DNA of 32,054 nucleotides from Bacteroidales bacterium. GTDB taxonomy: Bacteria; Bacteroidota; Bacteroidia; Bacteroidales; Muribaculaceae. The stretch is from contig SUXJ01000015.1 of assembly GCA_015061005.1 (NCBI GenBank), positions 1 through 32,054 of the forward strand, read 5' to 3'. The number at the start of each line of letters is the position of its first letter. Within the stretch, counting starts at the first letter, position 1. The notes below the pieces were generated by a model. It was not told where the DNA came from, searched no databases, and worked only from the letters and a program-made list of their open reading frames with translations. Position numbers and translations under genes: made by a program. Below, in pieces: positions 1 through 31,607 of this stretch.

Positions 1-1861
1 AAGAGACTGTCTAACAATAAAAAGTTGGGGAGTCTCTTTTTTGTGCAAAAATTGCAGAAATTAAGCAGCCTTCGTTACGTAAAAGAATTCTGTTGCGTAA
101 CAACATAAATCGAGGGGCATACAAAGCCTTCTTTTGAGTTTTGATGACAACATTTTGCTCAAAAAAGAGTTTTCTGCCCATGTCAGGGCAAGTTTCCTCA
201 GATTATGGGCAAGAGCTTTTAGCCCGAAGTCGATTTTCACTCCAATCATCCCCTTAAGTCTAAATCGCCTGAACTTGCCACATTCTTTTATCTGACCAAA
301 TACCGCTTCCGGCTCTATCGGACGGTTGCTTCTGTGTTTCAGCCCTTGTTCGCTTGTAAGCAGTTCTCTTACTCTGGCTTTGTAATCATCAAGTGTGTGG
401 TTGACCTCTATCTGTCTGTTATGCTTTGATTTATGGCATTGCCCCAGAAGTGGACATCCCTCGCATCGGGTCGCCCGGTAAATACTGACAGTCTGTTGGT
501 ATCCGCTTGCTGTATAACGCTTTTCCTGACGTATGAATTCCATTTTTTGTCCCATGGGGCAGACAAAGAAGTCTCCATCGGGATTATAGAACAGGTTGGA
601 TACTCGGAAAGGATTGTTGCGATAGCGTCGTTTTTGCTCAACGTGAAACATATTGTATTTAACATATGGTGTCATTCCATTGGCGAACATAAACTCGTAA
701 TTCTCCTCTGAGCCGTAACCACTGTCTGCAACGATTTCCCGACTATACATTCCGTATCGAGCTCTGAAGGATTCAAGATAGTCTATCATTGTGAGAGTGT
801 CCGTAGGACGCTGATAGATACCAAAGTTAGTTATGTACTGATTCTCCGTAGATATTTGTACATTATAGCAGGGTTTTAGTTGCCCGTTGAGCATGGAGTC
901 CTCTTTCATACGCATAAATGTGGCATCGTGGTCGGTCTTGGAGTATGAGTTGCGGCTGCCCATGGTGGCGAGTTGCTCCTTATATCGCTTCATTCGTGGC
1001 ACCACATTAGTCTCTATCTGTTTTATTACCTTGTGTTCTTCTTTGCTGAGATTTTCAGCATCAACTTTAGACTTAATGCGTTCCACTCTTTGGGCAACCT
1101 CTTCTGCCGTAAGTTCTTCTGCTACGGGATTTTCCTGATTCTCAATGGCATGATTATGCTCTATCTGATTGAGAAGAGCCTCTGTTTTAGCTTTTAACTT
1201 TGCATCATATTTTTCAACTGAACCACGCCATACAAATGTATACTTGTTGGCGACCGACTCTATCTTTGTGCCATCAATATATTGTACTTTCAATGATACA
1301 AAACCCGCTTGATGAAGTAACTCCACAACTTGGGTAAACACGGAATCAAAACCATCTTTCAAGCGTTTGCCCCGATAATAATTGATTGTACGAAAGTCTG
1401 GACGCTTCATGCCTGACAACCACATGAAATATATATCCCTCTTAAGTAACTCCTCGATTCGTCGCGATGAGTAAACATTGCTCAAATAGGCGAAAACCAG
1501 AACCTTGAGCATCATCTTCGGACTGAATGCACTATTGCCCCCTCCTCGATAGGTCGAAAGTATATCACTGATATCAAGACGTTCAATGACTGCATCAACA
1601 ACCCTTACCATGTGATTTGCGGGGACTAATTCATCTAGCGACGGAGGAAGTAGGAGTTTTTGTTTTCTAACATCAGATTTTATTGCTAACTTTGCCATGT
1701 TATGTTTTGATTATTAGTCGTTTAGTAGCAACCCAAATTTACTAAAAATCTATGACATAGCAAAGGCTTTCTTGCTGAATTTCAGATAGAAAGCCTTATT
1801 TTTTTATCGCTGTATCACACACAAAAAAAGAGACCGCCTAAACTTGTTAGACAGTCTCTTT
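1..1861 (-). mobile_element. IS1182-family insertion sequence, complete
   Basis: Perfect 17-bp terminal inverted repeats lie at 1-17 (AAGAGACTGTCTAACAA) and 1844-1860 (its exact reverse complement), enclosing one transposase gene. The window begins at the first base of the left repeat, so a target-site duplication cannot be tested. Each end also folds on itself: bases 1-8 pair with 31-38, and 1827-1834 pair with 1854-1861 within A- and T-rich flanks. Both ends can therefore form terminator-like hairpins. The right end lies 72 bp before the pheT -7 box and does not interrupt a visible gene. Family assignment rests on the transposase sequence; the exact IS name cannot be given without a database. 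Confidence 0.88.
61..1698 (-). CDS. IS1182-family DDE transposase
   Basis: A 545-residue cut-and-paste transposase. The N-terminal part (about 1-120) looks like the DUF772 domain found in IS1182/IS5-group enzymes. The probable DDE triad is D142 (in YIDGTKIES), D325 (in VADSGYGSEENY) and E464 (in EPEAVFGQIK). Between the second and third acidic residues lies a cysteine set (C380, C412, C415, C421), spaced like the small zinc-binding module seen in this family. Residues 160-245 are a charged, probably helical insertion. The ATG at 1698 gives full length and there is no frameshift, so the enzyme looks intact. It is transcribed away from pheT. The promoter is not obvious. Confidence 0.9.
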   Translation of the reverse strand: MAKLAIKSDVRKQKLLLPPSLDELVPANHMVRVVDAVIERLDISDILSTYRGGGNSAFSPKMMLKVLVFAYLSNVYSSRRIEELLKRDIYFMWLSGMKRPDFRTINYYRGKRLKDGFDSVFTQVVELLHQAGFVSLKVQYIDGTKIESVANKYTFVWRGSVEKYDAKLKAKTEALLNQIEHNHAIENQENPVAEELTAEEVAQRVERIKSKVDAENLSKEEHKVIKQIETNVVPRMKRYKEQLATMGSRNSYSKTDHDATFMRMKEDSMLNGQLKPCYNVQISTENQYITNFGIYQRPTDTLTMIDYLESFRARYGMYSREIVADSGYGSEENYEFMFANGMTPYVKYNMFHVEQKRRYRNNPFRVSNLFYNPDGDFFVCPMGQKMEFIRQEKRYTASGYQQTVSIYRATRCEGCPLLGQCHKSKHNRQIEVNHTLDDYKARVRELLTSEQGLKHRSNRPIEPEAVFGQIKECGKFRRFRLKGMIGVKIDFGLKALAHNLRKLALTWAENSFLSKMLSSKLKRRLCMPLDLCCYATEFFYVTKAA

Positions 1862-10060: not shown

Positions 10061-10927
10061 TTAGCGGAGGTTTATGAGTTTGAGGGTTTGCGGAGAGAGG
10101 AAGTTGCGTAATTCCGAATATGGAATGGTGCATGAGGGGTGACCCATTGAGTACGGTGCGATTTCATATTGCTGATAAACGAAGGTGATGCCGCTCTTGC
10201 CGAATTGAGGGTTGCCGGCAGGCAAATCGAGAACTTCGGGGTCTATCAGCAAAGCGGCTCCAAGGCTTTCGTCGGGAAATTTCTTTTCGAAGTATTGCTC
10301 CCACAGGGCATTGCGAATCAGGTCGAGCAAATCCGCCTTCTTGTCGGGGAGAAACACGTTTTCGTTCGTGAGCATTTCGCCGTTTTCGGCATTAAACGTC
10401 TGCCCCATAAGCAAGGTAGAGCCGTGGGCTCCGCCCAAGTACATATATTCGGAGAAAGTATATGTCAGCAGTTTGCCGGAATTATAACTCGGAGCAAACG
10501 ATATGTCAAATTCATAAGGACAGCTCCAATCTTCTCCGTCCGGTCCTCGCATTTCAGCCTCAGAAGTGCGGATAAGTGCATTGCTGCACCTCCTCACAAG
10601 CATTCTGCCGTTTCCGAGCAATTCGGGCGGAGTTGCAAACATGGGTTGCTCGCCCTGATTTGCGTGCGATAAAAAGTCTGCCAGCCACTGCCTTACGGCG
10701 GTCAGCAACTCCGCATTTCCGGACTGAGGATACTGCCCTGAGATTTTCACAGACACATAGCCCGACCCAACATCAACTTTTCGTTCCGAGGTTATGGTCT
10801 TGGCTAAAAAGACAGTGTTATCAGGTTCGGCAGCGATCAGCGTCGTACTGCAGATGGTAACGGCAGCAATTGCCGCAATCAGGCTTTTAATGACTTTCAT
10901 CTTTATTTTCATATCTGATATTTTCAT
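10061..10927 (-). CDS. Exported DUF3298 (RsiV-like) protein
   Basis: A 288-residue protein if started at the ATG at 10927; ATGs at 10912 and 10900 are also possible. All give a signal sequence with core VIKSLIAAIAAVTICSTTLIAA, and the cysteine leaves a lipoprotein possible. The DUF3298 region is marked by the Y-GGAHG motif (EYMYLGGAHGSTLLMGQTF) near the middle and a C-terminal part similar to RsiV/PdaC-type periplasmic domains. The molecular role in Bacteroidetes is unknown. A longer ORF upstream to 11335 is excluded because it lies inside the next gene. It follows the TIGR02757 gene by 8 bp and is the last gene of the operon. Confidence 0.8.
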   Translation of the reverse strand: MKISDMKIKMKVIKSLIAAIAAVTICSTTLIAAEPDNTVFLAKTITSERKVDVGSGYVSVKISGQYPQSGNAELLTAVRQWLADFLSHANQGEQPMFATPPELLGNGRMLVRRCSNALIRTSEAEMRGPDGEDWSCPYEFDISFAPSYNSGKLLTYTFSEYMYLGGAHGSTLLMGQTFNAENGEMLTNENVFLPDKKADLLDLIRNALWEQYFEKKFPDESLGAALLIDPEVLDLPAGNPQFGKSGITFVYQQYEIAPYSMGHPSCTIPYSELRNFLSPQTLKLINLR

Positions 10928-10935
10928 ATAATCGT

Positions 10936-11694
10936 TTATTCCACTCCGAGCCCGAATAATGCAAAATCGAAATACGTCGGGTCCTCGGGACGCAGCGTGC
11001 GCAATGCGGCGGTTATCTCCTCGGCTGTGCGCTTGTCGTTGGCGCGTCGCACGGTCAGCCCAATGGCACGAGAAGTGTTGCCCACGTGCACATCTAACGG
11101 AATATATAAATCGGCCGGAGTCAGTGAGTTCCAAACGCCCATATCGACAATACCGTCGTTTCTCACCAGCCAACGCAAAGCCATATTCAAGCGTTTCAAC
11201 GCCGTGGATTGGAGATTTAGGGGCAAGCATCGCGAATCCGTCCGTCCGCCGTTTGCCGCCGCCATGCGCCGGTTCAGAGCCTCGGCAAGCCGCCATGGGG
11301 CACAATCTTGCCCAACAAGTTTGAGCGAGCCGCAAAAAGCGTCCAAGCTCGGAAATTCGGCATAGATTGAGCGCAAGCCCCGAAGCAAATGCTTCAGATT
11401 TCGGCCGAAAAAGGTGCGGTGAATATTCTGCTCATCGTCAATCGCCTCAAACGCACCCTCTCTCACCCAATCAGCAGGCTGATTTTCGGCAAATACAAGC
11501 AGTCGCTCAATATCACGGCATATCATCTTCCGATTGCCCCACGCCAAGTGTGAAGACAAGAGAGCCACGACCTCAATGTCGGCAACAGTCCGGAACCTCC
11601 GGGGGAATTGTACGGGGTCAGCCGCCACGAACTCCGGAGAGTTAATCCTCGCAGCCTCCCGTTCGAGCATTTCTGCAACTTCCGATGCAATCAT
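10936..11694 (-). CDS. TIGR02757 family protein (DUF2400)
   Basis: A 252-residue cytoplasmic protein that I recognise as TIGR02757/DUF2400. Family landmarks include LLSSHLAWGNRKMICRDIE near residues 45-65, LNMALRWLVRNDGIVDMGVW in the middle and PLDVHVGNTSRAIGL near 200. The family is common in Bacteroidetes and of unknown function; the helical pattern recalls HhH-GPD DNA glycosylases (distant, inferred). Its ATG overlaps the TGA of porX in an ATGA arrangement, indicating translational coupling. Confidence 0.88.
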   Translation of the reverse strand: MIASEVAEMLEREAARINSPEFVAADPVQFPRRFRTVADIEVVALLSSHLAWGNRKMICRDIERLLVFAENQPADWVREGAFEAIDDEQNIHRTFFGRNLKHLLRGLRSIYAEFPSLDAFCGSLKLVGQDCAPWRLAEALNRRMAAANGGRTDSRCLPLNLQSTALKRLNMALRWLVRNDGIVDMGVWNSLTPADLYIPLDVHVGNTSRAIGLTVRRANDKRTAEEITAALRTLRPEDPTYFDFALFGLGVE

Positions 11695-13229
11695 TTAGGC
11701 GAGAGAGTTACTAACGGAATGACCATTTCTTCAAGCGATATGCCACCGTGCTGAAAAGTGTCGGTATAATACTGCACGTAGTAATTATAGTTATTGGGGT
11801 AAGCAAAAAAGTCACGGCCATAGGCAAAGATATAGGCAGTGCTGACATTGGGCGACGGCAAGCCATAGTCAGCCGGGCGCGTAATCTCAAACACCTGCTT
11901 TGGATTATAATTCAGCATCTTGCCAAGCTTATAGCGCAGGTTAGTGTTAGTGTTTCTGTCACCAACCACCTTAATTGGATTGGTCACCCTGACAGTGCCA
12001 TGGTCAGTGGTCAAAATCACTTTATAGCCCTTTTCAGCGACTTTACGCAAGAACTCCAGAGCCGATGAATGCTTGAACCAAGATTCCGTAATGGAGCGGT
12101 ATGCTGCATTTGTCGAAGCTAATTCGCGCATCATCTTTGACTCCGTTCTCGCATGGCTCATCATGTCAATAAAATTGAACACAACGACGTTCAAATCATT
12201 GCTTTCCAGATTTGCAACTTCTCGAATCAAACGCTCTCCGGCAGCATTATCGTTGATTTTGTTGTATGAGAATTTTACTCCCTTGCGCCTGTAACGCTCA
12301 AATTGAGTGGCAATCAGCGGCGACTCGTTAAGATTCTTGCCCCGCTCGTCATCCTCATCGACCCATAAGTCCGGAAACATGCGCTCAATATCACGCGGCA
12401 TCAACCCCGAAAAAATTGAATTACGAGCATACTGAGTTGCAGTGGGCAAGATTGAGCAATACGTATCTTCCTTAATGGTAAAATACTCGCCGAGAAGCGG
12501 ACGCACCATGCGCCATTGGTCAAGACGGAAATTATCGATTAAGATGAAAAATACTTTCTCTCCGGCATCAAGCAGAGGGAAAACGCATCGCTTAAACACA
12601 TCGGGGCTCATCAGCGGACGGTTAACCCCGTCGAGCCAATCGCGATAATTGCGCTTTACAAAACGCCCGAAAGCAACGTTTGCCTCCTGCTTCTGCATTT
12701 CGAGCATCTCATCCATATTGGTCTCACGCCCGGCAAGTTCCAGCTCCCAATAGGTCAGAGTTTCATAAAGTCGCTGCCAATCCTCAAAAGTTTCGCACGA
12801 GCCGATTTTGCTGCTCAAATCCATGAATTCTTGCCTGTAATCGGCTCCGGTCTGCTCGCTGACCAATCGCTCGGCATGGAGATTTTTCTTGATGCTAAGC
12901 AATATCTGATTCGGGTTAACGGGTTTGATGAGATAGTCGGCAATGTTTTGCCCCACCGCTTGGTCCATAATATTCTCCTCCTCGTTCTTGGTAATCATTA
13001 TAACGGGAGTGTGCGGCAAAATTCGCTTAAGCCTCTGCAAAGTTTCCAAGCCCGACAACCCCGGCATATTCTCGTCGAGGAATATTAAATCGGGATGATG
13101 CTCCGCAGCCTGATCAAGGGCGTCTCTGCCATTATTGACAGTGAGAACCTCATAACCCTTGGTTCGCAGAAACATGATGTGAGGCTTCAGCAAATCAATT
13201 TCATCATCGACCCAAAGAATCTTACTCAT
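11691..13229 (-). CDS. porX: PorX-type response regulator with PglZ phosphatase domain
   Basis: A 512-residue protein. Residues 1-118 are a CheY-like receiver: acidic pair D8/D9, phosphoacceptor D52 (LIFLDENMPG), T80 and K102 at standard places. A helical linker (about 119-210) follows. Then comes an alkaline-phosphatase-superfamily PglZ domain with metal-site candidates D232 (IDNFRLDQW), the LPTATQYARNS loop with its Thr nucleophile, D355/H359, D409/H410 and H494. In Porphyromonas and Flavobacterium, PorX regulates T9SS and hydrolyses cyclic oligonucleotides. The ATG at 13229 is preceded by AAGGAG at 13242-13237, an unusually good Shine-Dalgarno for this group; an earlier TTG at 13235 is rejected. 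It lies 18 bp after the esterase-mutarotase gene. Confidence 0.93.
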   Translation of the reverse strand: MSKILWVDDEIDLLKPHIMFLRTKGYEVLTVNNGRDALDQAAEHHPDLIFLDENMPGLSGLETLQRLKRILPHTPVIMITKNEEENIMDQAVGQNIADYLIKPVNPNQILLSIKKNLHAERLVSEQTGADYRQEFMDLSSKIGSCETFEDWQRLYETLTYWELELAGRETNMDEMLEMQKQEANVAFGRFVKRNYRDWLDGVNRPLMSPDVFKRCVFPLLDAGEKVFFILIDNFRLDQWRMVRPLLGEYFTIKEDTYCSILPTATQYARNSIFSGLMPRDIERMFPDLWVDEDDERGKNLNESPLIATQFERYRRKGVKFSYNKINDNAAGERLIREVANLESNDLNVVVFNFIDMMSHARTESKMMRELASTNAAYRSITESWFKHSSALEFLRKVAEKGYKVILTTDHGTVRVTNPIKVVGDRNTNTNLRYKLGKMLNYNPKQVFEITRPADYGLPSPNVSTAYIFAYGRDFFAYPNNYNYYVQYYTDTFQHGGISLEEMVIPLVTLSPK

Positions 13230-13247
13230 TGGCAATCTCCTTAAGAG

Positions 13248-16200
13248 TTAAAAATCCAACTTCAAGACTTCCGACGTTCTGATTCTCGGCTTTAATTCAC
13301 CTCCGTAGAGGTAAAGCGAGCCCTCGCCATCGGGAATCAACGCTGCACCTGCACGCGCCGCATCGGGAGTGGTCAAGACCACTTCCCAGCTGTTGCTTAC
13401 GGGATTATATACAATCACATTCGGATTAAACCGATACCATTCGATCGGGTGCATCAAATAGTCCGGGGCTTGATTTTGCAAAGCCGACAGGAACACGTCT
13501 TTGTTGACTCCTCCACACACGGCAATGCGCCCGTCGGGCAAAGAGGCCGCCACGCCGCCTCCTGTGGCCAGCTCAATGCCATTACCGTCTGACGGCGCGG
13601 GCAGAGGGCTCCACTTTCCGGTCGTCGGGTCATATTTCAGTCCGTCAAGTTCCAGAGTGGCATCTTTTCCACTACCGGCAAATCCTCCCCAAAGATACAG
13701 ACATCCACCTGCCGCAGCCATGACAGGCTGCACTCGCGGATTTCCGGGCATGGACTTCAACTTTTGCCATTTGCCGGACTCCATATCAAGGGCATACAGA
13801 TTCTTTGAAGGCTTTCCGGAGTTATTACCGCCGGCAACATAAACGGTTTTGCCTATTGCCGCAGCAGCGGCATTGTCAACAGCCTCGGGCATAGATGGCA
13901 ACTCGTTTAAGCCGTCAGCAGTGAGCACCCACACCTTGCCATTCGGAGCAATCCACACCGGTCCCTGCTCAGTTTGCGCCGAAGCTCCATAGGCCATAGG
14001 CTCGGGCAACGAGCCGATGCGCTTCCATTGCATATCTGACGGGTCGGCTGCATAGATTCCGCGATAACTCTTTTTTGAACTCGCGGGGCCTAACGGATCT
14101 TCGGGGAAATTACATCCTCCGGCAATCACAGGAAGATGCCCGAGACGACCAAAGAATGGAGCTGAAACCCCGTTTTCGTATCCGGGCTCAATGTCGAAGT
14201 CAGCAGCATTGTCGGCCTCAGCCTTAAATGTTGAGGCAGGCAGCCCTGCACCATTAACCACATTTGCACGAGTAAACGGCTGCCATGCATAACGCACATA
14301 GCGAGGATTCTTAACGTTCATATTTTTCAAAATAATTTTATTGTCAATAATTTCAGCGTCTGCAGGATAATAAACGCCTTCATGTTCTGCAAGTTCAAAG
14401 CAACACGCCGGAGCCCCGTCGGAAGTGGTCAAGCCATCGGCATTACTGAAGCAAAGTACCATTCGACCATTTTCCGAAACAGCACTCTGAAGCGTCGGTC
14501 CGCAATCCACAACGTTGGCATATCCATAGGTGCGATGCAAAGCCAATCGAGCCAGACGGTCTCCCACCGGAGCCTTCTGCTTTGGGTGAACATCGAGCGA
14601 ATCGCCCACATCGCTTGTCACCGCCATGCCCGCAAACGGTATTTCATCGGCCATGCGTCGCTGACTGTCGCGAAATTCAGGCCACGACGGACGGTTTATG
14701 CTGCTAAGTTGCACGAAGTAGAACGGCATCTTGGGGTTAGCGAATTCTCGACGCCATGAGTCAACCAAAAGCGGAAACAGCTGCTCGTGAAGCTCGATAT
14801 TATGAGCATTCGACTCGCCTTGATACCATATTGTGCCGGCTATCGGGAAGCCCATCAGAGGTCTAATCCCTGCCGCAAAGAGATATGACGGCTCATAAGG
14901 ATGACGAGACTCGGAGGCGTATTCACCCAAATTTTCTCTGATACGCCCTTGAACCCATTTTTGCAAATAGTCGTTGCCCTGCGGATTTATCAATATCTCG
15001 GGGACTGAAGCCTCAAGGGTATTGATGTCTATCCAAGATTCCGCAGGCGAGCCGCCTATGGCATTACATATAATTCCGATCGGCACCTGAAGGGAATCGC
15101 GCAACTGAGTGGCAAAATGATACGCCACAGCGGAAAATGCCGCCGTCGGCGCGCCCCACTTTGCCGAGCGATAATGGCGCAGCGCATCTGTTTCGGCTCT
15201 GACGGAGTCAGACCACTTGTAGATATCCGTATGGGCAATGGGCTTCATATCATAGACGCGGAGCAATGAGTCTTCGCGCGGAGTCTGACGCAAATGGTAC
15301 TCCATATTGCTCTGGCCGGAAGCAAGCCAAACCTCGCCGGCAAGAATCTTGCTCAACACAATGGTGGAATCTCCGTCGGTAACGGTTAGCGTATATTGCG
15401 GTCCTGTGACTAACGGCGAGGTCTTCACCCACCATTCTCCACGATTGTTTGCCACGGCACGAAATCTGCGCCCGTCCAACTCAACAGTGATTTTCTTGCC
15501 GGCATCTGCGCGACCGCGTATGGTCAATGGGACATTGCGCTGCACTATCATGCCGCTTTGCCACACCTCCGGGAGGCTAAGTCCGCCGTAATTGCCTGTA
15601 ATAGCTCCGCGAACCGTTTCCGCCAGAATTGTCGCACCTTCGACATCAGGGTGTATGCCGTCGAAAATCAAATCCTGACGATCGCGGAGCGGACTGTCGA
15701 AATCAATCAGTTCCGCACCCGTAATCTCAGCCACTTCTCTGATTGCGTCTTGAATCTTCAAGCGCCAATCGCGAGTGCCGGTTCTGAAACGAGGATGAGA
15801 AGATCGGAGCGGACTGAGCAAGGCAACGAGTATTCGTGCATGCGGATTTCGCTCCTTGAATGAATTTATCAAACCGACATAATCGCCGATAAATTCCGCA
15901 TTAAAATTGGGCCAATTGCGCGGATCGGTGTCGTTTACACCCAAATGAATCACCACGATGTCGGCAGCAAACTCTAATGCCGCCTCATATTCCGGCAACT
16001 TCATGTAGGGTCTGTGACCTCGATTAAGGAGCGTTGCTCCCGAATGTCCGAAGTTTTTCACCTCATATCCGTTGCCAAGCATACGTTGCAATTGAGACGG
16101 GTAGGCATTGACCTCACGGTCGGGCAACAAATAGCCATAGGTGATACTATTGCCAACGCAAGCAACCTTGACAGGTGCGACGGTTTCGCCATAGGCAAAC

Positions 16201-16253
16201 GTCACCGCCGTTGCCACCATGACCACAATCGCAATCAGTCCTCTTTTCAGCAT
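13248..16253 (-). CDS. Exported double-esterase/kelch mutarotase fusion (NanS-NanM type)
   Basis: A 1001-residue protein with signal peptide 1-22. Domain 1 (about 27-218) is an SGNH hydrolase: GNS with S36, G70, G105/N107 (LGVND) and D198/H201 (DGIH). Domain 2 (about 225-580) is a sialate O-acetylesterase: GQSNM with S315, QGESN 478-482 and D554/H556. Domain 3 (about 690-1001) is a kelch propeller with repeated VAGG/LWGG/CGG/LYGG blades, similar to the cyclically permuted NanM mutarotase (N-acetylneuraminate epimerase). Two esterase modules are known in NanS/EstA of Bacteroidetes; the fused mutarotase is uncommon as far as I know. All catalytic residues look present. It probably acts in the periplasm. 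It starts 1 bp after the epimerase gene. Confidence 0.85.
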   Translation of the reverse strand: MLKRGLIAIVVMVATAVTFAYGETVAPVKVACVGNSITYGYLLPDREVNAYPSQLQRMLGNGYEVKNFGHSGATLLNRGHRPYMKLPEYEAALEFAADIVVIHLGVNDTDPRNWPNFNAEFIGDYVGLINSFKERNPHARILVALLSPLRSSHPRFRTGTRDWRLKIQDAIREVAEITGAELIDFDSPLRDRQDLIFDGIHPDVEGATILAETVRGAITGNYGGLSLPEVWQSGMIVQRNVPLTIRGRADAGKKITVELDGRRFRAVANNRGEWWVKTSPLVTGPQYTLTVTDGDSTIVLSKILAGEVWLASGQSNMEYHLRQTPREDSLLRVYDMKPIAHTDIYKWSDSVRAETDALRHYRSAKWGAPTAAFSAVAYHFATQLRDSLQVPIGIICNAIGGSPAESWIDINTLEASVPEILINPQGNDYLQKWVQGRIRENLGEYASESRHPYEPSYLFAAGIRPLMGFPIAGTIWYQGESNAHNIELHEQLFPLLVDSWRREFANPKMPFYFVQLSSINRPSWPEFRDSQRRMADEIPFAGMAVTSDVGDSLDVHPKQKAPVGDRLARLALHRTYGYANVVDCGPTLQSAVSENGRMVLCFSNADGLTTSDGAPACCFELAEHEGVYYPADAEIIDNKIILKNMNVKNPRYVRYAWQPFTRANVVNGAGLPASTFKAEADNAADFDIEPGYENGVSAPFFGRLGHLPVIAGGCNFPEDPLGPASSKKSYRGIYAADPSDMQWKRIGSLPEPMAYGASAQTEQGPVWIAPNGKVWVLTADGLNELPSMPEAVDNAAAAAIGKTVYVAGGNNSGKPSKNLYALDMESGKWQKLKSMPGNPRVQPVMAAAGGCLYLWGGFAGSGKDATLELDGLKYDPTTGKWSPLPAPSDGNGIELATGGGVAASLPDGRIAVCGGVNKDVFLSALQNQAPDYLMHPIEWYRFNPNVIVYNPVSNSWEVVLTTPDAARAGAALIPDGEGSLYLYGGELKPRIRTSEVLKLDF

Positions 16254-16254
16254 A

Positions 16255-17445
16255 TTATTTTTTCAAAATTTCGTCAATAATCATTGGAGCCTTGATGAGC
16301 ATTCGCGGAATGTGGAAAGGCCCCTTGAAGATATTGCCCTTGGCCGGCTGCGCCACCGATCCGTCGCGATGCAAATAGCCGTACCATTCGCCGAATTCCG
16401 AGTCGGGCAGATGGTCATAGGTCCAATCATGAGCCATTGCAAACATCTTCAAATATTTGTCATCTCCGGTGGCTTCATAGGCATAGAGAGTAGCAATTAT
16501 GGCTTCGCATTGCGGCCACCAGAACTTCATGTCTTGAGAATAATCTTGAGGAGGGAAATTCTTGCAATCCTTGAAGTTTATAATGCCGCCAAATTCATTA
16601 TCCCAACCCCATTCCCAGCTCCAATCGAGAATGGTCAACGCCATCTGAGTGAGTTCGGGCTCCCAATTGCGATACTTGGCTTCTTCAAGCAGGAACCAAG
16701 CCGTTTCGATGCAATGACCGGGGTTTATGGTGCGCCCATTGAGCGTATCGATGATTTCGCCCTCGGGAGTAACCATTTCGAGCAATGCTTTTACTTCTGG
16801 GTGCATAAACTTATCGCGAATTTGCTTGACGGAATAAAGGATTTGCTCGTCAAGAATCGGGTCGGGAATCACCTGACGAATACGCGATGCAGTGTTGATA
16901 AGAATCATCGTGATGCTGTGGCCAATGGCCTTCAGCTCGGGCAGATACTTCGGTTCGAGCACGCCGGTATCAATGAAGCGCAAAATGTCGTGAAACAGTT
17001 GCAACGCTTTTTTGGCATACTCCTCTGAACCTGTTGCCAAGGCGTATTCGCTGAACGCTATGGCGGCAAAACATTCTGAGAAAACGTATCTGCGCTTACG
17101 GAGCGGTTTGCCCTCGGCTGTCACTTCGAAATACATTCGCCCGTCTGTGCGGTCAAAGCAATGCGACTCAATGAAATCTATGCAACTCTTTGAAAATTCA
17201 AGATATTCAGGGTTCTTCTCAAGATTATTATAGGCAAACGCATAAATGAACCCGCATCGACCCTGAAACCATACCGATTTGGTCGAGTCCATGAGATTTC
17301 CTTCGCGGTCAAGGCACGTGTAAACGCCACCATTGACCTTGTCCCAACCTTTTTCAAGCCAAAAGGGGAGAATGTTGGTCAGTGCGTCTTTGCGATAAAG
17401 CTCCCGATGTTCACACAAAAATTCACGAGTGAGGTCTGAAATCAT
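16255..17445 (-). CDS. nanE: N-acylglucosamine 2-epimerase (ManNAc to GlcNAc)
   Basis: A 396-residue (alpha/alpha)6-barrel enzyme of the AGE/renin-binding-protein family. Family segments seen are GYLHRDGSVAQPAKGNIFKGPFHIPRMLI at the C terminus (quoted here by its key residues W, H, K, F, H and R), NPGHCIETAWFLLEEA and FWWPQCEAIIATLYAYE, with the histidines expected for epimerisation. In Bacteroides fragilis an AGE-type NanE converts ManNAc released by the lyase to GlcNAc without prior phosphorylation. It starts 3 bp after the lyase stop and ends 1 bp before the next start, so the operon link is firm. The substrate is inferred from the neighbours. Confidence 0.9.
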   Translation of the reverse strand: MISDLTREFLCEHRELYRKDALTNILPFWLEKGWDKVNGGVYTCLDREGNLMDSTKSVWFQGRCGFIYAFAYNNLEKNPEYLEFSKSCIDFIESHCFDRTDGRMYFEVTAEGKPLRKRRYVFSECFAAIAFSEYALATGSEEYAKKALQLFHDILRFIDTGVLEPKYLPELKAIGHSITMILINTASRIRQVIPDPILDEQILYSVKQIRDKFMHPEVKALLEMVTPEGEIIDTLNGRTINPGHCIETAWFLLEEAKYRNWEPELTQMALTILDWSWEWGWDNEFGGIINFKDCKNFPPQDYSQDMKFWWPQCEAIIATLYAYEATGDDKYLKMFAMAHDWTYDHLPDSEFGEWYGYLHRDGSVAQPAKGNIFKGPFHIPRMLIKAPMIIDEILKK

Positions 17446-17448
17446 GGC

Positions 17449-18372
17449 TTATAACTTGTTGCAGCGTTCAAAAAATCCGATTTCTTCAAGTTCTCGCTTC
17501 ATTTGTGCTTCTTCTTCATCGGTCACATTACGGAAGGGAGTGCGATTCGGGCCGAGGTCCAAACCGATCAGTTTCATGATCCGCTTTCCGCCGACAATAT
17601 TGCCGCGATAACGACAAATAACGTTAATCACCTCTTGCGAGAAATTTTGATGCTCACGCGCCGCCTCAATATCACCGCGATTCCAAGCGTCGATTATTGC
17701 GGTCAGCTCTCGGCCGTTATAGTTGGTGGTGCCGCCAATGCCTCCTCGTGCGCCACCCATTGCCAAACAAGGCAAAATGGTTTCGTCCTGACCATGAAGC
17801 ATATCATATTTTCCGTCTTTGTAGAGGCGACATTGATTGTATTCATACAGGCTCTCAAACGTGTACTTGATGCCGGCGAAGTTGGGCACTCTGCCGTCCA
17901 CAGCTTTCAGCACGTCGAGCATAGGCAAAAACGCGCCGTTAAATGCCGGAATATGGTAAAAATAGAACGGCAGCGAGGGCGCACCACACGCGATTTCTTC
18001 AATGTATTTCACCAACTCTTCCACTCTGGCGATTTTAGGGAACGGAGGAGCCATAGCGCCGATACCCCATGCACCGATTTCTTCAGCATGGCGAGCAAGT
18101 TCGCGACTATCGCGCACGCAGCAACTGCCCACGTGGACAATCACCTTAAAACCTTCCGGAGCAGCCTTTACCCATGCTTCTGCCAGAGCTTTTCGTTCTT
18201 CGGTAGTTAGCATATAGCCCTCGCCTGAGGAGCCGTTAACAAACACTCCCTTGAGACCGTTTTTTTGCAACATCGCTGCATAAGCCGGAATAGGCGCCAA
18301 ATTCACATTGCCATCTGCATCAAACGGAGTAAACGGGGCATCAATAAGCCCTACTATTTTTTCAAATTCCAT
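17449..18372 (-). CDS. nanA: N-acetylneuraminate lyase
   Basis: A 307-residue class I aldolase of the DHDPS/NAL family. GSSGE (48-51) binds the carboxylate; Y139 (FYFYHIPAF) and the Schiff-base lysine K169 (FAGIKYTFE) are in place. The FYFYHIPA segment and the sialic-acid gene context favour NAL over dihydrodipicolinate synthase. It cleaves Neu5Ac to ManNAc and pyruvate in the cytoplasm. In Bacteroides the same gene is called nanL. It follows the transporter by 24 bp. Confidence 0.93.
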   Translation of the reverse strand: MEFEKIVGLIDAPFTPFDADGNVNLAPIPAYAAMLQKNGLKGVFVNGSSGEGYMLTTEERKALAEAWVKAAPEGFKVIVHVGSCCVRDSRELARHAEEIGAWGIGAMAPPFPKIARVEELVKYIEEIACGAPSLPFYFYHIPAFNGAFLPMLDVLKAVDGRVPNFAGIKYTFESLYEYNQCRLYKDGKYDMLHGQDETILPCLAMGGARGGIGGTTNYNGRELTAIIDAWNRGDIEAAREHQNFSQEVINVICRYRGNIVGGKRIMKLIGLDLGPNRTPFRNVTDEEEAQMKRELEEIGFFERCNKL

Positions 18373-18396
18373 AATCTGTCCTATTATTTTAAGTTA

Positions 18397-19656
18397 TTAT
18401 TTATCGGTTTCTTCTAAATCCTTATCGTCATATTTGGGACGCAACACGAGCAGCTGCAAAGCCAGAGCAACGAGTAATATGCCGCCCATCATTGCAAAAC
18501 ACAGACCCAGCCCTACGCTATCGCTCAGGCGTCCGAGCAGTTGTGTGGTAACCGCACCCATCATGACTCCCACGGAGTTCATGAAGCCATAAGCCATTGC
18601 CCTGCGGCGAGATGAGACGAACTGACACAGGATAGGCATATTGTTGGCATCAAACATGCCATAGCCCACACCGAAACACAGTCCGGCAAGGATGGAGAGG
18701 AATGCGTTGTCGGCCAGTCCGATAAGCACTAATGCCGGAATCATCATCGACAAGCCGATGGCACTCGTGAAGATACGACCTCTAACGTTGCGACGCACCC
18801 AGCGGTCACTGAGCGGTCCGCCAATCATCACGCCGATAAAGCTTGAAACGGCGATGGTCAATGTTGCCATCGGTCCTGCCCAATCCATGCCTATGCCGAG
18901 GTTTTCATGGAACAATGTGGGCAGCCAGTTTTTAGTTGCCCAACCGGGAATCGAACTCGTTGCAAAGAAAAAGAGTATCACCCAAAACGCCATGGTGGAG
19001 AACACGGCAACGAGTGACTGCACCACGCCCTCACTCTTAGCCTTCGGGGCGGTGGCGGCAACGGGGATGTTCGCTTCACGAGGCTTCTCGTGGAGCAACA
19101 CAATGAGCAAAGCGGCATATACCACACCTATGATACCGAACCACTGGAAGGTGGCTTGCCATGACCATGTCGATGCCACCATTGAGCCAAATCCGCCCAG
19201 GGCTTGACCGCAATAGAGTCCGGTCATGTGCAGACCGATTGCAAGCGACCTCCCTTTGCCGCTGAAGTAGTCGGCAATCAACGACAGAGCCGAGGGAATA
19301 TAAAGTGCTTCACTGATACCCATAATTCCGCGCAGCACCATCAATTGATTCAAATTATCACACAGTCCCATAGCATAGGTAACCGCAGACCACACGCCCA
19401 ACGAGCCGACAATGAGCCACTTACGGCTGATACGGTCGGCAACGGCTCCGGAAAACGGGCTCGCCACACCATAAACCCACAAGAATATTGCCATCAACGC
19501 GCCAAAAGCTTCCGCATTATGCAATGCCGGAATGTCGATTGCGATGCTGCCCTGCATTGTCGACAGCATTTGACGGTCAAGATAATTTAACAATGCCACT
19601 ATCCAAAGCAGCCCCACTACCACCCACGGATAGATTTTCATTTGTTGTAATTTCAT
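18397..19656 (-). CDS. nanT: MFS transporter, probably for sialic acid
   Basis: A 419-residue major facilitator with about 12 membrane helices. The first helix begins PWVVVGLLWIVALLNYLDRQ, typical of the anion:cation symporter branch. The loop motif DRISRKW follows helix 2, with a matching loop (GGPLSDRWVRRN) in the second half. Substrate cannot be read from the sequence alone; being first in an operon with the lyase and epimerase points to Neu5Ac, as NanT in B. fragilis. The ATG at 19656 lies 28 nt from the -7 box. Confidence 0.85.
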   Translation of the reverse strand: MKLQQMKIYPWVVVGLLWIVALLNYLDRQMLSTMQGSIAIDIPALHNAEAFGALMAIFLWVYGVASPFSGAVADRISRKWLIVGSLGVWSAVTYAMGLCDNLNQLMVLRGIMGISEALYIPSALSLIADYFSGKGRSLAIGLHMTGLYCGQALGGFGSMVASTWSWQATFQWFGIIGVVYAALLIVLLHEKPREANIPVAATAPKAKSEGVVQSLVAVFSTMAFWVILFFFATSSIPGWATKNWLPTLFHENLGIGMDWAGPMATLTIAVSSFIGVMIGGPLSDRWVRRNVRGRIFTSAIGLSMMIPALVLIGLADNAFLSILAGLCFGVGYGMFDANNMPILCQFVSSRRRAMAYGFMNSVGVMMGAVTTQLLGRLSDSVGLGLCFAMMGGILLVALALQLLVLRPKYDDKDLEETDK

Positions 19657-19683
19657 GGATATTTTGATTTAAAGTCTATGTTG

Positions 19684-19715
19684 CAAAGATAATGTTTTTT
19701 TCGTGAAAGGTCAAA
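19684..19715 (-). promoter_or_regulatory. Promoter of the nan-porX operon
   Basis: On the minus strand: TTTG (19715-19712), a 20-nt spacer, TATCTTTG (19691-19684). Both boxes are exact matches to the Bacteroidetes consensus. The -33 box overlaps the last two codons and stop of the upstream GH3-family gene. No further TAnnTTTG was found in the short gaps between the seven genes down to 10061, so this may be the only promoter. Confidence 0.8.
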
Positions 19716-25889: not shown

Positions 25890-28358
25890 ATGAAAAAATT
25901 CTTTACTTCTGCTTTGTCGTTGCTCGTTGCAGCAACAGGATTGGTTTCAACTTATGCAGCTGTACCTGAAAATGGGGTGTATGAAATCAAGCACAACGAC
26001 CGTGGTTACTTGACCCAGAACGTTGAGGCCGGCACTATTCACCCCGGTGACGCCACTCTCGGCGGCTTCACTACTGCCAACAAGTGCGTTGTTGGTCGCA
26101 CTGAAAACGGCTACAACCCCTATTGGTATCTCTACACATCCGAGAAAACCGGTTCGTCTTACATTTTCAGCGCAATCGACGGCAAATTCCTCGCCTACGA
26201 TAACGGCACTGCTTCCGGCGACAATGCTTCACTGCTGAACCTGTCGGAAACTCCTGCTCCCTTCGACATCACCGAAGCCACAACTTCCGGAATGTATGAA
26301 ATCCACGGAAAAGGAGTGACTGATACCGCGTTTTCAAACAGCATCGGTTGGGGCATAAACGTTACTTACCGTTTCGCCAACATCTTCACTGACTACGACG
26401 GCATTGCTCATGCTTTCGTTGCCGCTACAGTAGAGAATGACGAAGAAGTAATCAACGCCGGAATCGCAAAGATCCTCGCATCTGAAAGCGACACTCAAGC
26501 CACTATCGACTCTTACACCGAATTCTTCAACAACGCAAAAGCCACTTATGCCGACAACGCCGACATTGTTGCTATTGCCGATGAAGCCCTCGCTATAATT
26601 GCGACTATCGATCCCCTCGTAGAGATTCCCGCTGAAACAATTGAAGCCCTCGAAGCATTCAAGGCTGCAATTGAGGTGCAGGTTCTCATCGCCGAGAAGA
26701 AGGCCGCCCTTGAACCCCTCTTCGCCGCAGCAAACGACCCCGAGTTCTACATGGACATTCTCGGTCAGTTCGATTGGTGCGAAACTGCTGAAGAAGTGGA
26801 AGACACCTACAACAACCTCCTTGACAATGCATTCATGTTCATGCAGAGCAACCTCGAACTCGGCAGCCTCTGGAAAAACAACCGCGCCGGTCGCTACATG
26901 GGCAGCGTTGTTGCAGCTGACGGCACCGTTTCTTATCAGCTCATCAACGACCTGACCCTCAACTCTTACTGGATTGCAGAATTCACCTCTGACGCCGGCG
27001 GCGGCATCGCACCCATGACGGAAGGTGAAGTAGTTGAAGGTGGTGAAGAAGATACTTACGAAAGCGACACAATGCGCCGCACTTTCTATCTCCGCAACGT
27101 TTTGACCAACACCTACGTAGGCATCCAAACCGTAAACAACTCAGTTGTTCCCGTTGCAACCTCAAAGGAAAATGCCGCCGAACTCAAGCTCATTGCCGGA
27201 GCGAACGGCTTTGAATACCTCATTATCAGCGGAGACGTGGAAAACAACTTCCTCAACGTTGCCAACGAAGAAAATGCACCCCTCGTAACCTATCAAGTTA
27301 CTGGCGATGCCGGCGCATTCTGGTCAACCAAGGCTCTGCCGTCATTCCCCGAAAAACTGGCTTATGTCACCGAGGTTAAATTCACCGGCGAATACACCTT
27401 GAGCGAGTGGGGCTGGGAAGAATGGTCCGCCATCAAGGGCGTTGAAATCAGAGTGGCAAAGGGTGCCAAACTCACTGAAATCGGCGCGATAGAAATCTTC
27501 CACTACAGCGATGACTGGTCCAGCACTATTGTTGACTACTCAGCATCCCTTGCTTCTCTGCTCGAAGGCGTTACTCCCACTGCCGGCACATATAAATATG
27601 ACAACGGTTATTGGGACGAAAACGGGAACTACGTTGAACAGTATGAATACTTCGACCAAGACGTTTATACAATCACCCTCGAGACTCCCTTCACCGACTA
27701 TAAAGAATATTACCTCTCACTCAAAACCGGTTCATTCTATCTCACTGACGAAACTAACGGCACAACCTATAGCGGCGAAGCCTCTGCATGGGCTGAAATC
27801 GTTGCTCCGCCGGCTCCTTTCGACGTTGTTGTAACTCCTGTTGAAGGTACTCTGGTTGAGCTCACCGAAATCAACTTCGGTTGCGACAAGAATATCTATG
27901 CAAACTGGAACTGCTGGGATGCCATGACTCTCGTTGCCAACGGTGAAACCACACTCTTCGAGCTTTATGCCGGCAACATGGACGCATACGCATACTGGGA
28001 CTTCGACGATCCTAACGCTCCTTACTTCAAGATTCCCGTTGCTGAAGCTGTTACCGCTTACTACAACAGACTCATTGAAAATGCAGGCGAAGGCGAGGAA
28101 ATCACAGTGCCCGAATTCAATCCTGCAGCTGCCGGAACATACGTGCTCACAGTGCCCGAAGGCTTCTTCACCGATGATCCTGAAAACGAAAGCAACCCCA
28201 TTACCGTTACTTGGACCATCGAAGAAAAAGACGGCATCAACACTATCACCAGCGTGACAGTTAACGGAAACGTTATCTATGACCTCCAAGGCCGCCGCGT
28301 AGCTAACCCCGACAAGGGCATCTACATCATCAACGGCAAGAAAACTCTCGTTAAGTAA
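25890..28358 (+). CDS. Large exported acidic protein with T9SS-type tail
   Basis: An 822-residue protein. Signal peptide 1-23 (MKKFFTSALSLLVAATGLVS then TYA). Residues 25-165 form a beta-rich region with GVYEIKHNDRGYL and a YWYLYTSEKTGS-type repeat that recalls ricin-like/beta-trefoil modules (weak). A helical acidic stretch runs about 180-290, then beta-rich repeats, two of them rich in Tyr and Asp. The C-terminal tail reads VIYDLQGRRVANPDKGIYI and ends INGKKTLVK, as in the other two tailed proteins here. It is therefore probably displayed on or released from the cell surface by T9SS. No enzymatic motif was recognised; a binding or adhesion role is possible but unproven. Confidence 0.82.
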   Translation: MKKFFTSALSLLVAATGLVSTYAAVPENGVYEIKHNDRGYLTQNVEAGTIHPGDATLGGFTTANKCVVGRTENGYNPYWYLYTSEKTGSSYIFSAIDGKFLAYDNGTASGDNASLLNLSETPAPFDITEATTSGMYEIHGKGVTDTAFSNSIGWGINVTYRFANIFTDYDGIAHAFVAATVENDEEVINAGIAKILASESDTQATIDSYTEFFNNAKATYADNADIVAIADEALAIIATIDPLVEIPAETIEALEAFKAAIEVQVLIAEKKAALEPLFAAANDPEFYMDILGQFDWCETAEEVEDTYNNLLDNAFMFMQSNLELGSLWKNNRAGRYMGSVVAADGTVSYQLINDLTLNSYWIAEFTSDAGGGIAPMTEGEVVEGGEEDTYESDTMRRTFYLRNVLTNTYVGIQTVNNSVVPVATSKENAAELKLIAGANGFEYLIISGDVENNFLNVANEENAPLVTYQVTGDAGAFWSTKALPSFPEKLAYVTEVKFTGEYTLSEWGWEEWSAIKGVEIRVAKGAKLTEIGAIEIFHYSDDWSSTIVDYSASLASLLEGVTPTAGTYKYDNGYWDENGNYVEQYEYFDQDVYTITLETPFTDYKEYYLSLKTGSFYLTDETNGTTYSGEASAWAEIVAPPAPFDVVVTPVEGTLVELTEINFGCDKNIYANWNCWDAMTLVANGETTLFELYAGNMDAYAYWDFDDPNAPYFKIPVAEAVTAYYNRLIENAGEGEEITVPEFNPAAAGTYVLTVPEGFFTDDPENESNPITVTWTIEEKDGINTITSVTVNGNVIYDLQGRRVANPDKGIYIINGKKTLVK

Positions 28359-28487: not shown

Positions 28488-31400
28488 ATGAAACGACTTC
28501 TTTACGCCCTGATTCTATGCTTAGCTTCTCTGCCGGGCACTGCACAAGTAACAAATATGGCCCTGAGTTTTGAGGGGAACGGCAGAGTTTCGTTAGGCAT
28601 CATGCCCGCCGCCTCCTCGACATCTGACGGCACCACTCTGCAATTTTGGCTCTGCCCCCAACATTGGATTCCCGGCTCCAATATCATCACGTGGGGTTCC
28701 GGTCTTAACATCCGGTTAGGCTCTCCCGGCCAACTCGCCATTCAAACCGCAGACTCTTCTTTTGCCTTTTCCGATGCCAATTTATCGACCGGGAATTGGG
28801 CTCACGTCACTCTGATGTTAGATGACACAACGGCAACCATGCTTGTCAACAATGCCAACGAGCAAACCGCCCCTCTTTCCGCGCCTTTTGTTGTCCCGAC
28901 AGAAGATCCCCTGCTGCTCGGAGGAGGATTCCTCGGACGCATTGACGAAGTGAGACTCTGGAACTTTATTCTCCCGAATGACTACAACCGATTCTGGAAC
29001 AACACTATAGATAAATATATCCCTTCGTGGAAACACGTTGTGGCTTATTGGAAATTTGACCAATCGCGCCTCGCCTCAAACGTCTATGACTATCGAGGCA
29101 AGAACCGAAACGGTACTTTCAGCGAAACCGGAGTGAAGCGCACTGCCGTCACCGATAACTCCAAATTCGTTTATCGCCGCAACCTTGCCTACGCCGACTG
29201 CTCCAGATTCTTTGACCGCGAAGTTCAAAAGGGGCAATACCTCAAGAGCAACGTCATCAGCATGATCGGCGCAACAGCCCAAGCCGACGGCTCACTGAAA
29301 TACAAGCAGCCCGACAATGCCGGCACTATTACCAACGGCTCGTATCTTGAGTCATACAGCGGACGCTCCGGAGTGCTCGACCTGAACGGAGAGGGCGCAA
29401 AGATGAACACCGGGAAGGAAACCCTAATCGCTTTCAATAACAGCAACTACCTCGAAACGACGTCGGCATATACGTTCATGACATGGATTTCATTCGATAC
29501 GTGGACTCCGGGGGCGTTCCTCATCAAAAAAGAAAGTTCCTCAAAAAATGGGATTTCGCTGCGCTTGGGCGAGGATCAAGGTGAATTCATCTTGCGATGC
29601 AACGGAGTGGAATTTACCTACTCAACCACTCTGTCGCTTGACAAATGGTATCACATCGGGTTCTCAACAAATGCCGGCACTCTTGGCAGCGAGTTTGTTT
29701 TCTTGGTCAACAGCCGAAACCTCAGCCCGACCTATTCCCACACCGAAGCCGCCTCAACAGCCCTCTCCGGCCTCCGCTCCACCAACTGCTACATAGGCCA
29801 AAACCTTGACGCAAAACTCGATGAAACAATCACTTGGTCACAAGCATTCAATGCCGACAACATAATAGCTCAAGGCACTAATCCTATTGAACCCGCAATC
29901 GGCAAGCCTATTAACGGAGCCTATGCGCGCTCGGTCGATGGCTTGTGGAAATACGACCTCGCCGATGACCTCGGACGCGACAGCTACTCCACTCCCGAAT
30001 GGTTCAGAATGATTAAGGGAGTTTTCGACGGCTATGAGGGTGCTTACGTGACCGTCAGCATTGACAAATGGTCAGATGAGTTCTTCACCAAAATAAACAA
30101 CAATGCCGACTATCGACAAACCCTTGCCGCAGCAATCGCAAAGATGGGCAACGAACCCTTCCTTGACGGCGTTGACTATGACTTTGAGTGGAACAACAAT
30201 TGGTCCGGAATTGGAACCCTCTGCAAATTAGTGCGCGAACAGCTTGAACCCGGAAAGATTCAAGCCGTATCTCCCCATGAGCTTTATTACAGCTTCCCGG
30301 TCGATAAAATGCAATACGTTGACTACTTTAACTTCCAGGACTACGGACCCGGCAACAAAAACCTGTTTACCTTCAACAACTATAAAAATTTCTTCACCAA
30401 AGCGAAAAACTACGGCTATCCGGTGGATAAAATAATGCTCTCATACGCCACCACAACCAGCGGCGCAATGTATAGCAACGGAAGCCGACCGGCAAGTTCT
30501 CACGCTGAATACTACCCCACCGGCTGGCGTTCCATGCCATACTCATCGTTTGAGTATTCCCAAAACTCCTACGACGTTGGCGAAGGACTCACCCGCTACT
30601 TCACCGGAATGGAACAGGTATGGCTCAGAAGTGAATACATGAACGCAAACGGATGTGCCGGCATTTTCTACTGGGACATGGGCAACGACACGCCGAGTTG
30701 CACCAACGCCCACTCCCTATCTTCGTTCGCTTCCTACGGCGTTAACTCAAACGTTCAGAAAATCATAGAATCGGTTGATGTGGCTGCCGCTCAACCTGAA
30801 GAATACGAATTCGAAGCTACAGAAACAGAATATTATCGCATCAGAGGAGCTGCCGACGGGCACACCACTCATCATCTCTATCAAAACGGCGATGAACTCT
30901 TTGCCGGCACAGACGGAGGTTTCGCGGCAAGCGTTTTCTCATTTGAAAAGTTCGATGACTCCGACGCTTTCTTCCTCAAAGCCAATGACGGACGCTATGT
31001 GCAAGACCGAAGCAAACTCCAATCAACCAACTCCATCTATCGATTTGACTTTACCCCGGCGCCATACGCCTTAAAGAGCACGGAATATGACTATCCGGAA
31101 GGACACTACTGCTTCGAACAAACGCAGTACACCCCCGGGAAAGAAGGCTTCACCGACGTGCAACGCTGCCTCAAATGCAATGGCGACAACGAAGGGGTTT
31201 CCACTTGGGGACCATGGACTGCCGCCTCTCATTGGGCCGTTGAACCTCTCTATGGCTACGATATCTACTCCATTGCTCTGGGCAACGGCATTGATGCCAT
31301 TTCATGCCTCATTGACGGCTACTCCGGCAGCCCCGTGATCTACTCCGGCGGCTTCATCGTTCTGCCTTCCGGAGCGGAAATCACTCCCGACAACATTTCA

Positions 31401-31607
31401 GCCACCAACACCGACAATATTACCGTAAAAATTGACTCTGCCAAAAAGCGAATCACCGTAACAGCCGGTTCAGACTCTGCCATCGAACAAATCGAAGCCG
31501 AATCCGGTCTGCCTGATGAAATCTACGATTTGTCCGGACGCAAGCTCAAACAAATCAATACGCCCGGCATCTACATCATCAACGGAAAGAAAACCCTCGC
31601 AAAATAA
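28488..31607 (+). CDS. Exported LamG-GH18 glycosidase with T9SS-type tail
   Basis: A 1039-residue protein. Signal peptide 1-20 (MKRLLYALILCLASLPGTAQ). Two LamG/concanavalin-like modules follow: about 22-195 (IDEVRLWNFIL near 152-162) and about 280-460 (YTFMTWISFDTW at 328-339). The GH18 barrel spans about 475-760, with the motif DGVDYDFE at 560-567, putting the catalytic acid at E567 and its helper at D565. GIFYWDMGND (725-734) is the expected last strand. GH18 covers chitinases and endo-beta-N-acetylglucosaminidases; surface display and the neighbouring nan genes favour host N-glycans, but this is inference. The C terminus has IYDLSGRKL and then GIYIINGKKTLAK. Confidence 0.87.
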   Translation: MKRLLYALILCLASLPGTAQVTNMALSFEGNGRVSLGIMPAASSTSDGTTLQFWLCPQHWIPGSNIITWGSGLNIRLGSPGQLAIQTADSSFAFSDANLSTGNWAHVTLMLDDTTATMLVNNANEQTAPLSAPFVVPTEDPLLLGGGFLGRIDEVRLWNFILPNDYNRFWNNTIDKYIPSWKHVVAYWKFDQSRLASNVYDYRGKNRNGTFSETGVKRTAVTDNSKFVYRRNLAYADCSRFFDREVQKGQYLKSNVISMIGATAQADGSLKYKQPDNAGTITNGSYLESYSGRSGVLDLNGEGAKMNTGKETLIAFNNSNYLETTSAYTFMTWISFDTWTPGAFLIKKESSSKNGISLRLGEDQGEFILRCNGVEFTYSTTLSLDKWYHIGFSTNAGTLGSEFVFLVNSRNLSPTYSHTEAASTALSGLRSTNCYIGQNLDAKLDETITWSQAFNADNIIAQGTNPIEPAIGKPINGAYARSVDGLWKYDLADDLGRDSYSTPEWFRMIKGVFDGYEGAYVTVSIDKWSDEFFTKINNNADYRQTLAAAIAKMGNEPFLDGVDYDFEWNNNWSGIGTLCKLVREQLEPGKIQAVSPHELYYSFPVDKMQYVDYFNFQDYGPGNKNLFTFNNYKNFFTKAKNYGYPVDKIMLSYATTTSGAMYSNGSRPASSHAEYYPTGWRSMPYSSFEYSQNSYDVGEGLTRYFTGMEQVWLRSEYMNANGCAGIFYWDMGNDTPSCTNAHSLSSFASYGVNSNVQKIIESVDVAAAQPEEYEFEATETEYYRIRGAADGHTTHHLYQNGDELFAGTDGGFAASVFSFEKFDDSDAFFLKANDGRYVQDRSKLQSTNSIYRFDFTPAPYALKSTEYDYPEGHYCFEQTQYTPGKEGFTDVQRCLKCNGDNEGVSTWGPWTAASHWAVEPLYGYDIYSIALGNGIDAISCLIDGYSGSPVIYSGGFIVLPSGAEITPDNISATNTDNITVKIDSAKKRITVTAGSDSAIEQIEAESGLPDEIYDLSGRKLKQINTPGIYIINGKKTLAK

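Follow-up and report, generated by a model that had tools for sequence, protein, structure and literature searches.

Probable read-through from a nan promoter into porX after a proposed lineage-specific rearrangement in a Muribaculaceae genome

In P. gingivalis, the type IX secretion system (T9SS) regulator PorX acts together with the kinase PorY, which is encoded at a separate locus (PMC10951265, available sections), and therefore the amount of PorX need not be limiting. With regard to sialic acid, the accessible parts of two papers describe that the nan genes of B. fragilis respond to this sugar and have a putative repressor NanR (PMC3969230) and that B. theta possesses a NanR of the ROK type (PMC3878776). 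No work joining Muribaculaceae, sialic acid and type IX secretion was found in the literature searched; the available portion of PMC4936053 contains no link between PorX and sialic acid, and that of PMC12839542 makes no statement about a nan-porX gene order. Here we describe a locus in which porX stands directly behind a set of nan-type genes. The window, which is the whole stretch of DNA that was analysed, comprises 32,054 nucleotides and is an entire contig (C5) of a Muribaculaceae genome of 2.12 Mb that is 99.93% complete. We consider it quite probable that a lineage-specific rearrangement has placed porX and its TIGR02757 neighbor behind the nan operon and that the porX mRNA is produced by read-through from the nan genes.

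The run consists of seven consecutive genes, all of them on the minus strand. It starts with an MFS transporter gene (putative NanT, 18397-19656, PF07690), which is followed by a gene of the N-acetylneuraminate lyase (NAL) family (17449-18372, PF00701), an AGE/NanE-like N-acylglucosamine 2-epimerase gene (16255-17445, PF07221) and a gene for a fusion of an SGNH esterase, a SASA acetylesterase and a NanM-like cyclically permuted mutarotase (13248-16253; PF13472, PF03629 and PF24996). Then come porX, coding for a response regulator with a PglZ domain (11691-13229; NF052313, PF00072 and PF08665), a TIGR02757/DUF2400 gene (10936-11694; TIGR02757 169 bits, cut-off 139.2) and a gene for a DUF3298 protein (10061-10927; PF11738 48.8 bits, cut-off 24.1). 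The gaps are exactly 24, 3, 1, 18, -4 and 8 bases, with TIGR02757 and porX overlapping by 4 bp. The start of porX is the ATG at 13229, and a TTG located 6 bases earlier opens the mechanical open reading frame. Coordinates and gaps given for this run in a preliminary description of the window were reproduced exactly, and the seven-gene arrangement is real. No Rfam model reached its gathering threshold in the window.

Both a NAL-family lyase and an AGE-family epimerase, the pair by which we recognized a nan operon, are present in the run. The nearest solved structures of the lyase are NALs (203 bits), and the epimerase reaches 409 bits to the solved N-acylglucosamine 2-epimerase 8bry. As the best NCBIfam equivalog scores of the two enzymes stay below the cut-offs (lyase 145.7 bits versus 281, epimerase 340.8 bits versus 600), the sialic-acid reading is based on the combination of genes. 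The top NCBIfam model of the MFS protein is a D-galactonate transporter, and none of the 25 matches listed is over its cut-off. The fusion protein has 1001 residues, and its mutarotase part scores 240.5 bits with TIGR03548, marginally below the cut-off of 243.2.

The assignment of PorX held up well. The protein is a full-length member of its family, scoring 815.1 bits with NF052313 against a cut-off of 300 and covering profile positions 2-513 of 513. It aligns from end to end with the solved chain 7pv7 (752 bits) and reaches 582 bits with 8ted; both chains are listed as 'response regulator' and are presumably derived from P. gingivalis and F. johnsoniae (PorX and PorX-Fj), respectively. The alignment with 7pv7 revealed FLDENMPG, LIDNFR, TATQYARN and TTDHGT as common motifs, which we take to be the phospho-acceptor region and the metal-site motifs of the PglZ domain. 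The genome of the window also encodes SprA/Sov (2606.7 bits) and PorW (645.9 bits), and the T9SS sorting domain model TIGR04183 has 21 matches in it at E <= 0.001 and 35 at E <= 0.5. As SprA/Sov, PorW and many of these CTD proteins are present, PorX plausibly keeps its usual role here, and the same matches rule out that porX was merely kept after a loss of the T9SS. The preliminary description had also counted three T9SS-tailed proteins in the window, which could not be confirmed: at E <= 0.5 no TIGR04183 match is located on this contig, and no sorting tail was detected by NCBIfam (E <= 0.1, 9 proteins) or Pfam (E <= 0.001). Read by eye, two proteins that have no TIGR04183 match (25890-28358 and 28488-31607) end in YDL.GR...GIYIINGKK, which resembles T9SS sorting tails. 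The second of them has a GH18 match below cut-off.

To place this gene order in a wider frame, PorX was searched in 148 genomes, the window's own included, and was over the cut-off in 136 of them. Neighborhoods were read in 60 other species (9 congeners, 31 of the same family and 20 of the same order), each represented by one genome, and in a second collection of the best 80 porX loci, from which the window's own genome is possibly absent. Both sets overlap, and the loci L123 and L124 apparently are the contigs of the congeners G002 and G010. A porX preceded by nan genes was encountered neither in the 60 species, which include all nine readable congeners, nor in the best 80 loci; the upstream reach is short in some cases, with less than 1 kb before porX in five of the 80 loci and about 1.1-1.3 kb in L049 and L060 of the 60. 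An order confined to this one genome had been set beforehand as the outcome refuting a link between the nan genes and porX, and among everything tested the nan-porX order was found in this genome only. The most common upstream neighbor is porW/sprE (named by NF052312), present in 35 of 60 species and 58 of the best 80 loci; it was counted if PorW matched on the same strand at no more than 1500 bases from where porX starts. Genes for tsaE and birA, named in L052, often follow porX in the relatives. Within the genus, 8 of 10 congeners and the window's genome have a PorW over the cut-off, that of G004 being partial, and in nine stretches from the genus neither porX nor tsaE or birA was found beside porW. 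G007, listed as 99% complete, has SprA and PorX and no PorW over the cut-off. The nan core is more stable: the lyase was detected at E <= 1e-60 in every genome of the genus (11/11) and, outside the genus, in 14 of 137 genomes searched, and the lyase-epimerase order is kept in 9/9 readable congeners. As the contexts of porX differ among these species, it is porX that moves in the genus while the nan core stays.

The genus is represented by 11 species in this comparison, one of which (G008) was left unused as its porX is cut by the contig end. The remaining 10 species show five porX contexts: the nan genes (window only), porL-M-N, DegT, an AraC-type gene and a private promoter. In G001 (by profiles) and in G005 (by clustering) porX follows porL-porM-porN (L034:7251-10965 and L038:7279-10966) with gaps of 202 and 28 bases; here the T9SS regulator adjoins T9SS core genes. 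A DegT aminotransferase gene lies 33-75 bases before porX in G002, G006 and G010, where it was read from the sequence by eye in G006, and is itself preceded by WxcM-like and adenylate kinase genes (profiles in G002 only). G007 carries an AraC-type HTH gene 3 bases upstream of porX. In G003, G004 and G009 a divergent leucine-rich-repeat gene (leucine-rich profile in G003 only) is located beside porX, and the porX ATG has a TAACTTTG box upstream that ends 4 bases before it (L036, L037 and L041). Judged by the -7 position of this box, the porX mRNA of these three species is predicted to be leaderless. For B. theta, only about 3.7% of the 5' UTRs are shorter than 10 nt according to the available text of PMC7366714. 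Together with the porW state, the five contexts amount to six states, and no tree can accommodate these with fewer than five changes.

A Bacteroidetes-type promoter of the form TTTG-N20-TATCTTTG is located at 19715-19684 on the minus strand, 27 bases ahead of the ATG of the first gene. This exact pattern match, already reported in the preliminary description, was confirmed, and it is the sole exact TTTG-N17-23-TAnnTTTG match on the minus strand of the run. On both strands of the window this pattern occurs four times, with 0.82 matches expected and as many in 3 of 100 shuffles. With a degenerate promoter score, the region before the nan genes reached 10/10 (as good in 1% of 300 shuffles). The best score before porX was 8/10, equalled by 72% of 300 shuffles and hence not above chance, and the six genes after the first are all without an above-chance score, with 61-98% of the shuffles doing equally well. 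The 18-bp junction between the stop of the fusion gene and the porX ATG (13230-13247) contains no promoter box, and no terminator-like site was found in it by an E. coli-type promoter and terminator scan, which is of little use in this phylum. The same type of motif occurs as a perfect TTGACA-N17-TATAAT in the DUF3298 gene (10509-10481, minus strand), which is odd for this phylum. The TAACTTTG box, located immediately ahead of the porX ATG in three congeners, is likewise missing before porX here. As there is no above-chance promoter, no terminator-like site and no TAACTTTG, the nan promoter probably drives porX, and read-through would be the likeliest source of its mRNA; the nan genes and porX are probably co-transcribed as a single transcript. 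A solitary -7 box (TANNTTTGY) inside porX at 11832-11824 could serve as promoter for the last two genes.

It is also conceivable that porX has an internal promoter within the fusion gene or is read by another sigma factor, which would make the operon-like look cosmetic. A -7-like TATCTTTG at 13697-13690, about 460 bp before porX, would allow for a weak promoter, and a second, rarer promoter motif exists in B. theta, as far as the available sections of PMC7366714 report. With only 2 of 4 bases of a -33 partner, this internal box is no better than chance, the best internal score is the one equalled by 72% of the shuffles, and porX of the window lacks the private box that G003, G004 and G009 have at the ATG. 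Therefore, we regard an own porX promoter of this kind as rather unlikely. The preliminary description had further pointed to a strong Shine-Dalgarno sequence of porX. AGGAG indeed precedes the gene, but as Shine-Dalgarno sequences are generally missing in Bacteroidetes (PMC3155529, in the part available), it says little and has small weight as evidence.

In the PorX tree the contexts track supported groups, namely G001 and G005 (100), G002, G006 and G010 (98) and G003, G004, G007 and G009 (99). The window adjoins the last of these groups, and the three porW-type species are separate (98). In the lyase tree and in the joint tree the genus does not form one group, as the porW-type species G018, G021 and G028 stand among the congeners, with supports of 91 and 87 in the joint tree; the lyase tree pairs the window weakly with G003 (59). 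As these trees mix porW-type species with congeners, the porW link need not have been lost only once. In this genus porX no longer follows porW and would have been captured by several unrelated transcription units.

For the window species, an already existing porX-TIGR02757 pair would have come to lie directly behind the MFS-lyase-epimerase-esterase/mutarotase operon. The 4-base overlap of TIGR02757 and porX is found in the window as well as in G003, G004 and G007, and G009 has a spacing of about 45 bases. The fusion gene is followed in G003 and G007 by a creatininase-family gene (PF02633, profile run for G007), whose place is taken by porX in the window; the landing site would be the position at which two congeners carry the creatininase gene. 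A creatininase homologue is present in 8 of the 11 genomes of the genus and was not found in those of the window (99.93% complete), G004 (85%) and G009 (84%). In six congeners the homologue (62-67% identity) and the nan genes are on separate contigs, and therefore creatininase at the nan end is not general. The nan-creatininase unit and TIGR02757-porX are neighbors in G007 and run towards each other. Starting from a G007-like order, we infer that loss of the creatininase gene and an inversion of the porX-TIGR02757 pair could have led to the order of the window. The window has a GH3-type gene upstream of nan, and a gene related to it (74% identity) occurs in G009 (L041:11001-14911), where it is convergent with porX-TIGR02757, another trace of reshuffled pieces. 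An IS transposase gene (DDE_Tnp_1_6) is located at the contig end (window 61-1698), and mobile elements may help to explain the reshuffling.

A selected coupling would imply that the nan promoter is switched on by sialic acid and that the resulting rise in PorX tunes T9SS output for foraging on host glycans. The likely common transcription unit, SprA/Sov together with the many CTD matches in the genome and the sialic-acid response of the B. fragilis nan genes mentioned above are in line with this. In addition, BNR_2, a family of sialidase-type fold that is not specific for sialidases, has three matches in the genome: one is over the cut-off (36.2 versus 31.4 bits), a second reaches it only with frame neighbors and the third stays below. 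Against a coupling stands that the nan-porX order occurs in no other species tested and that the partner kinase of PorX in P. gingivalis is encoded elsewhere. Furthermore, a ROK-type NanR was not found in the genome, as its two PF00480 (ROK) proteins are kinase-like by eye and have no N-terminal HTH. In G003, G004 and G009 the nan promoters upstream of the MFS gene share a stretch like TTTGTGGGGTRATWTTAAC that lies at the -7 box and beyond it (L096, L098 and L099); this stretch is absent from the window even if up to 3 mismatches are allowed. Taken together, we regard a selected coupling as quite improbable. Control of porX by sialic acid is possible and is the least supported part of the reading; the earlier proposal that sialic-acid supply sets the PorX level found no support in the sequence, as no ROK-type NanR was found. 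It is doubtful whether Neu5Ac changes the PorX level or whether such a change matters for T9SS output. From the idea of porX as a member of the nan operon, the shared promoter stands as probable, whereas a conserved or selected link is unsupported.

An assembly chimera, with a false join of two unrelated sequences between fusion gene and porX, would explain why the order occurs in one assembly only, but both open reading frames are complete and 18 bp apart and G007 has the same two units adjacent in other orientation, which makes a chimera extremely improbable.

We therefore favor the rearrangement followed by read-through, with the porX mRNA of this species most likely derived from the nan promoter, which lies 6.5 kb upstream, and the nan-porX order looks like a species-level placement of a gene wandering in the genus and not like a designed link. 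A more far-reaching version, in which the porX promoter changed at least five times in the genus and is here wholly nan-dependent, so that promoter capture tied secretion to sialic-acid metabolism, has in our opinion a low probability. If porX is read only from its host operons, the related species would represent a natural experiment with one regulator under five controls, and it would become testable whether PorX level or phosphorylation limits the T9SS. If the PorX level is irrelevant, the case demonstrates that functional guesses may be led astray by gene order.

Compared with the PorXY pathway of P. gingivalis (PorX) and F. johnsoniae (PorX-Fj), PorX of the window is a full-length homologue with receiver and PglZ domains. 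It belongs to the same family as PorX of the porW-porX-tsaE-birA block of Bacteroidales, but in contrast to this block porW is not upstream of porX in the window's genome or in any of the nine readable congeners; in relatives porX stands mostly behind porW, in the window behind nan genes. Similar to nanLET of B. fragilis and the nan genes of T. forsythia, the run groups the families of lyase, AGE-type epimerase, MFS transporter, acetylesterase and mutarotase. Unlike these clusters, it includes no regulator, TonB-type receptor or sialidase gene among its nan genes and ends with a secretion regulator.
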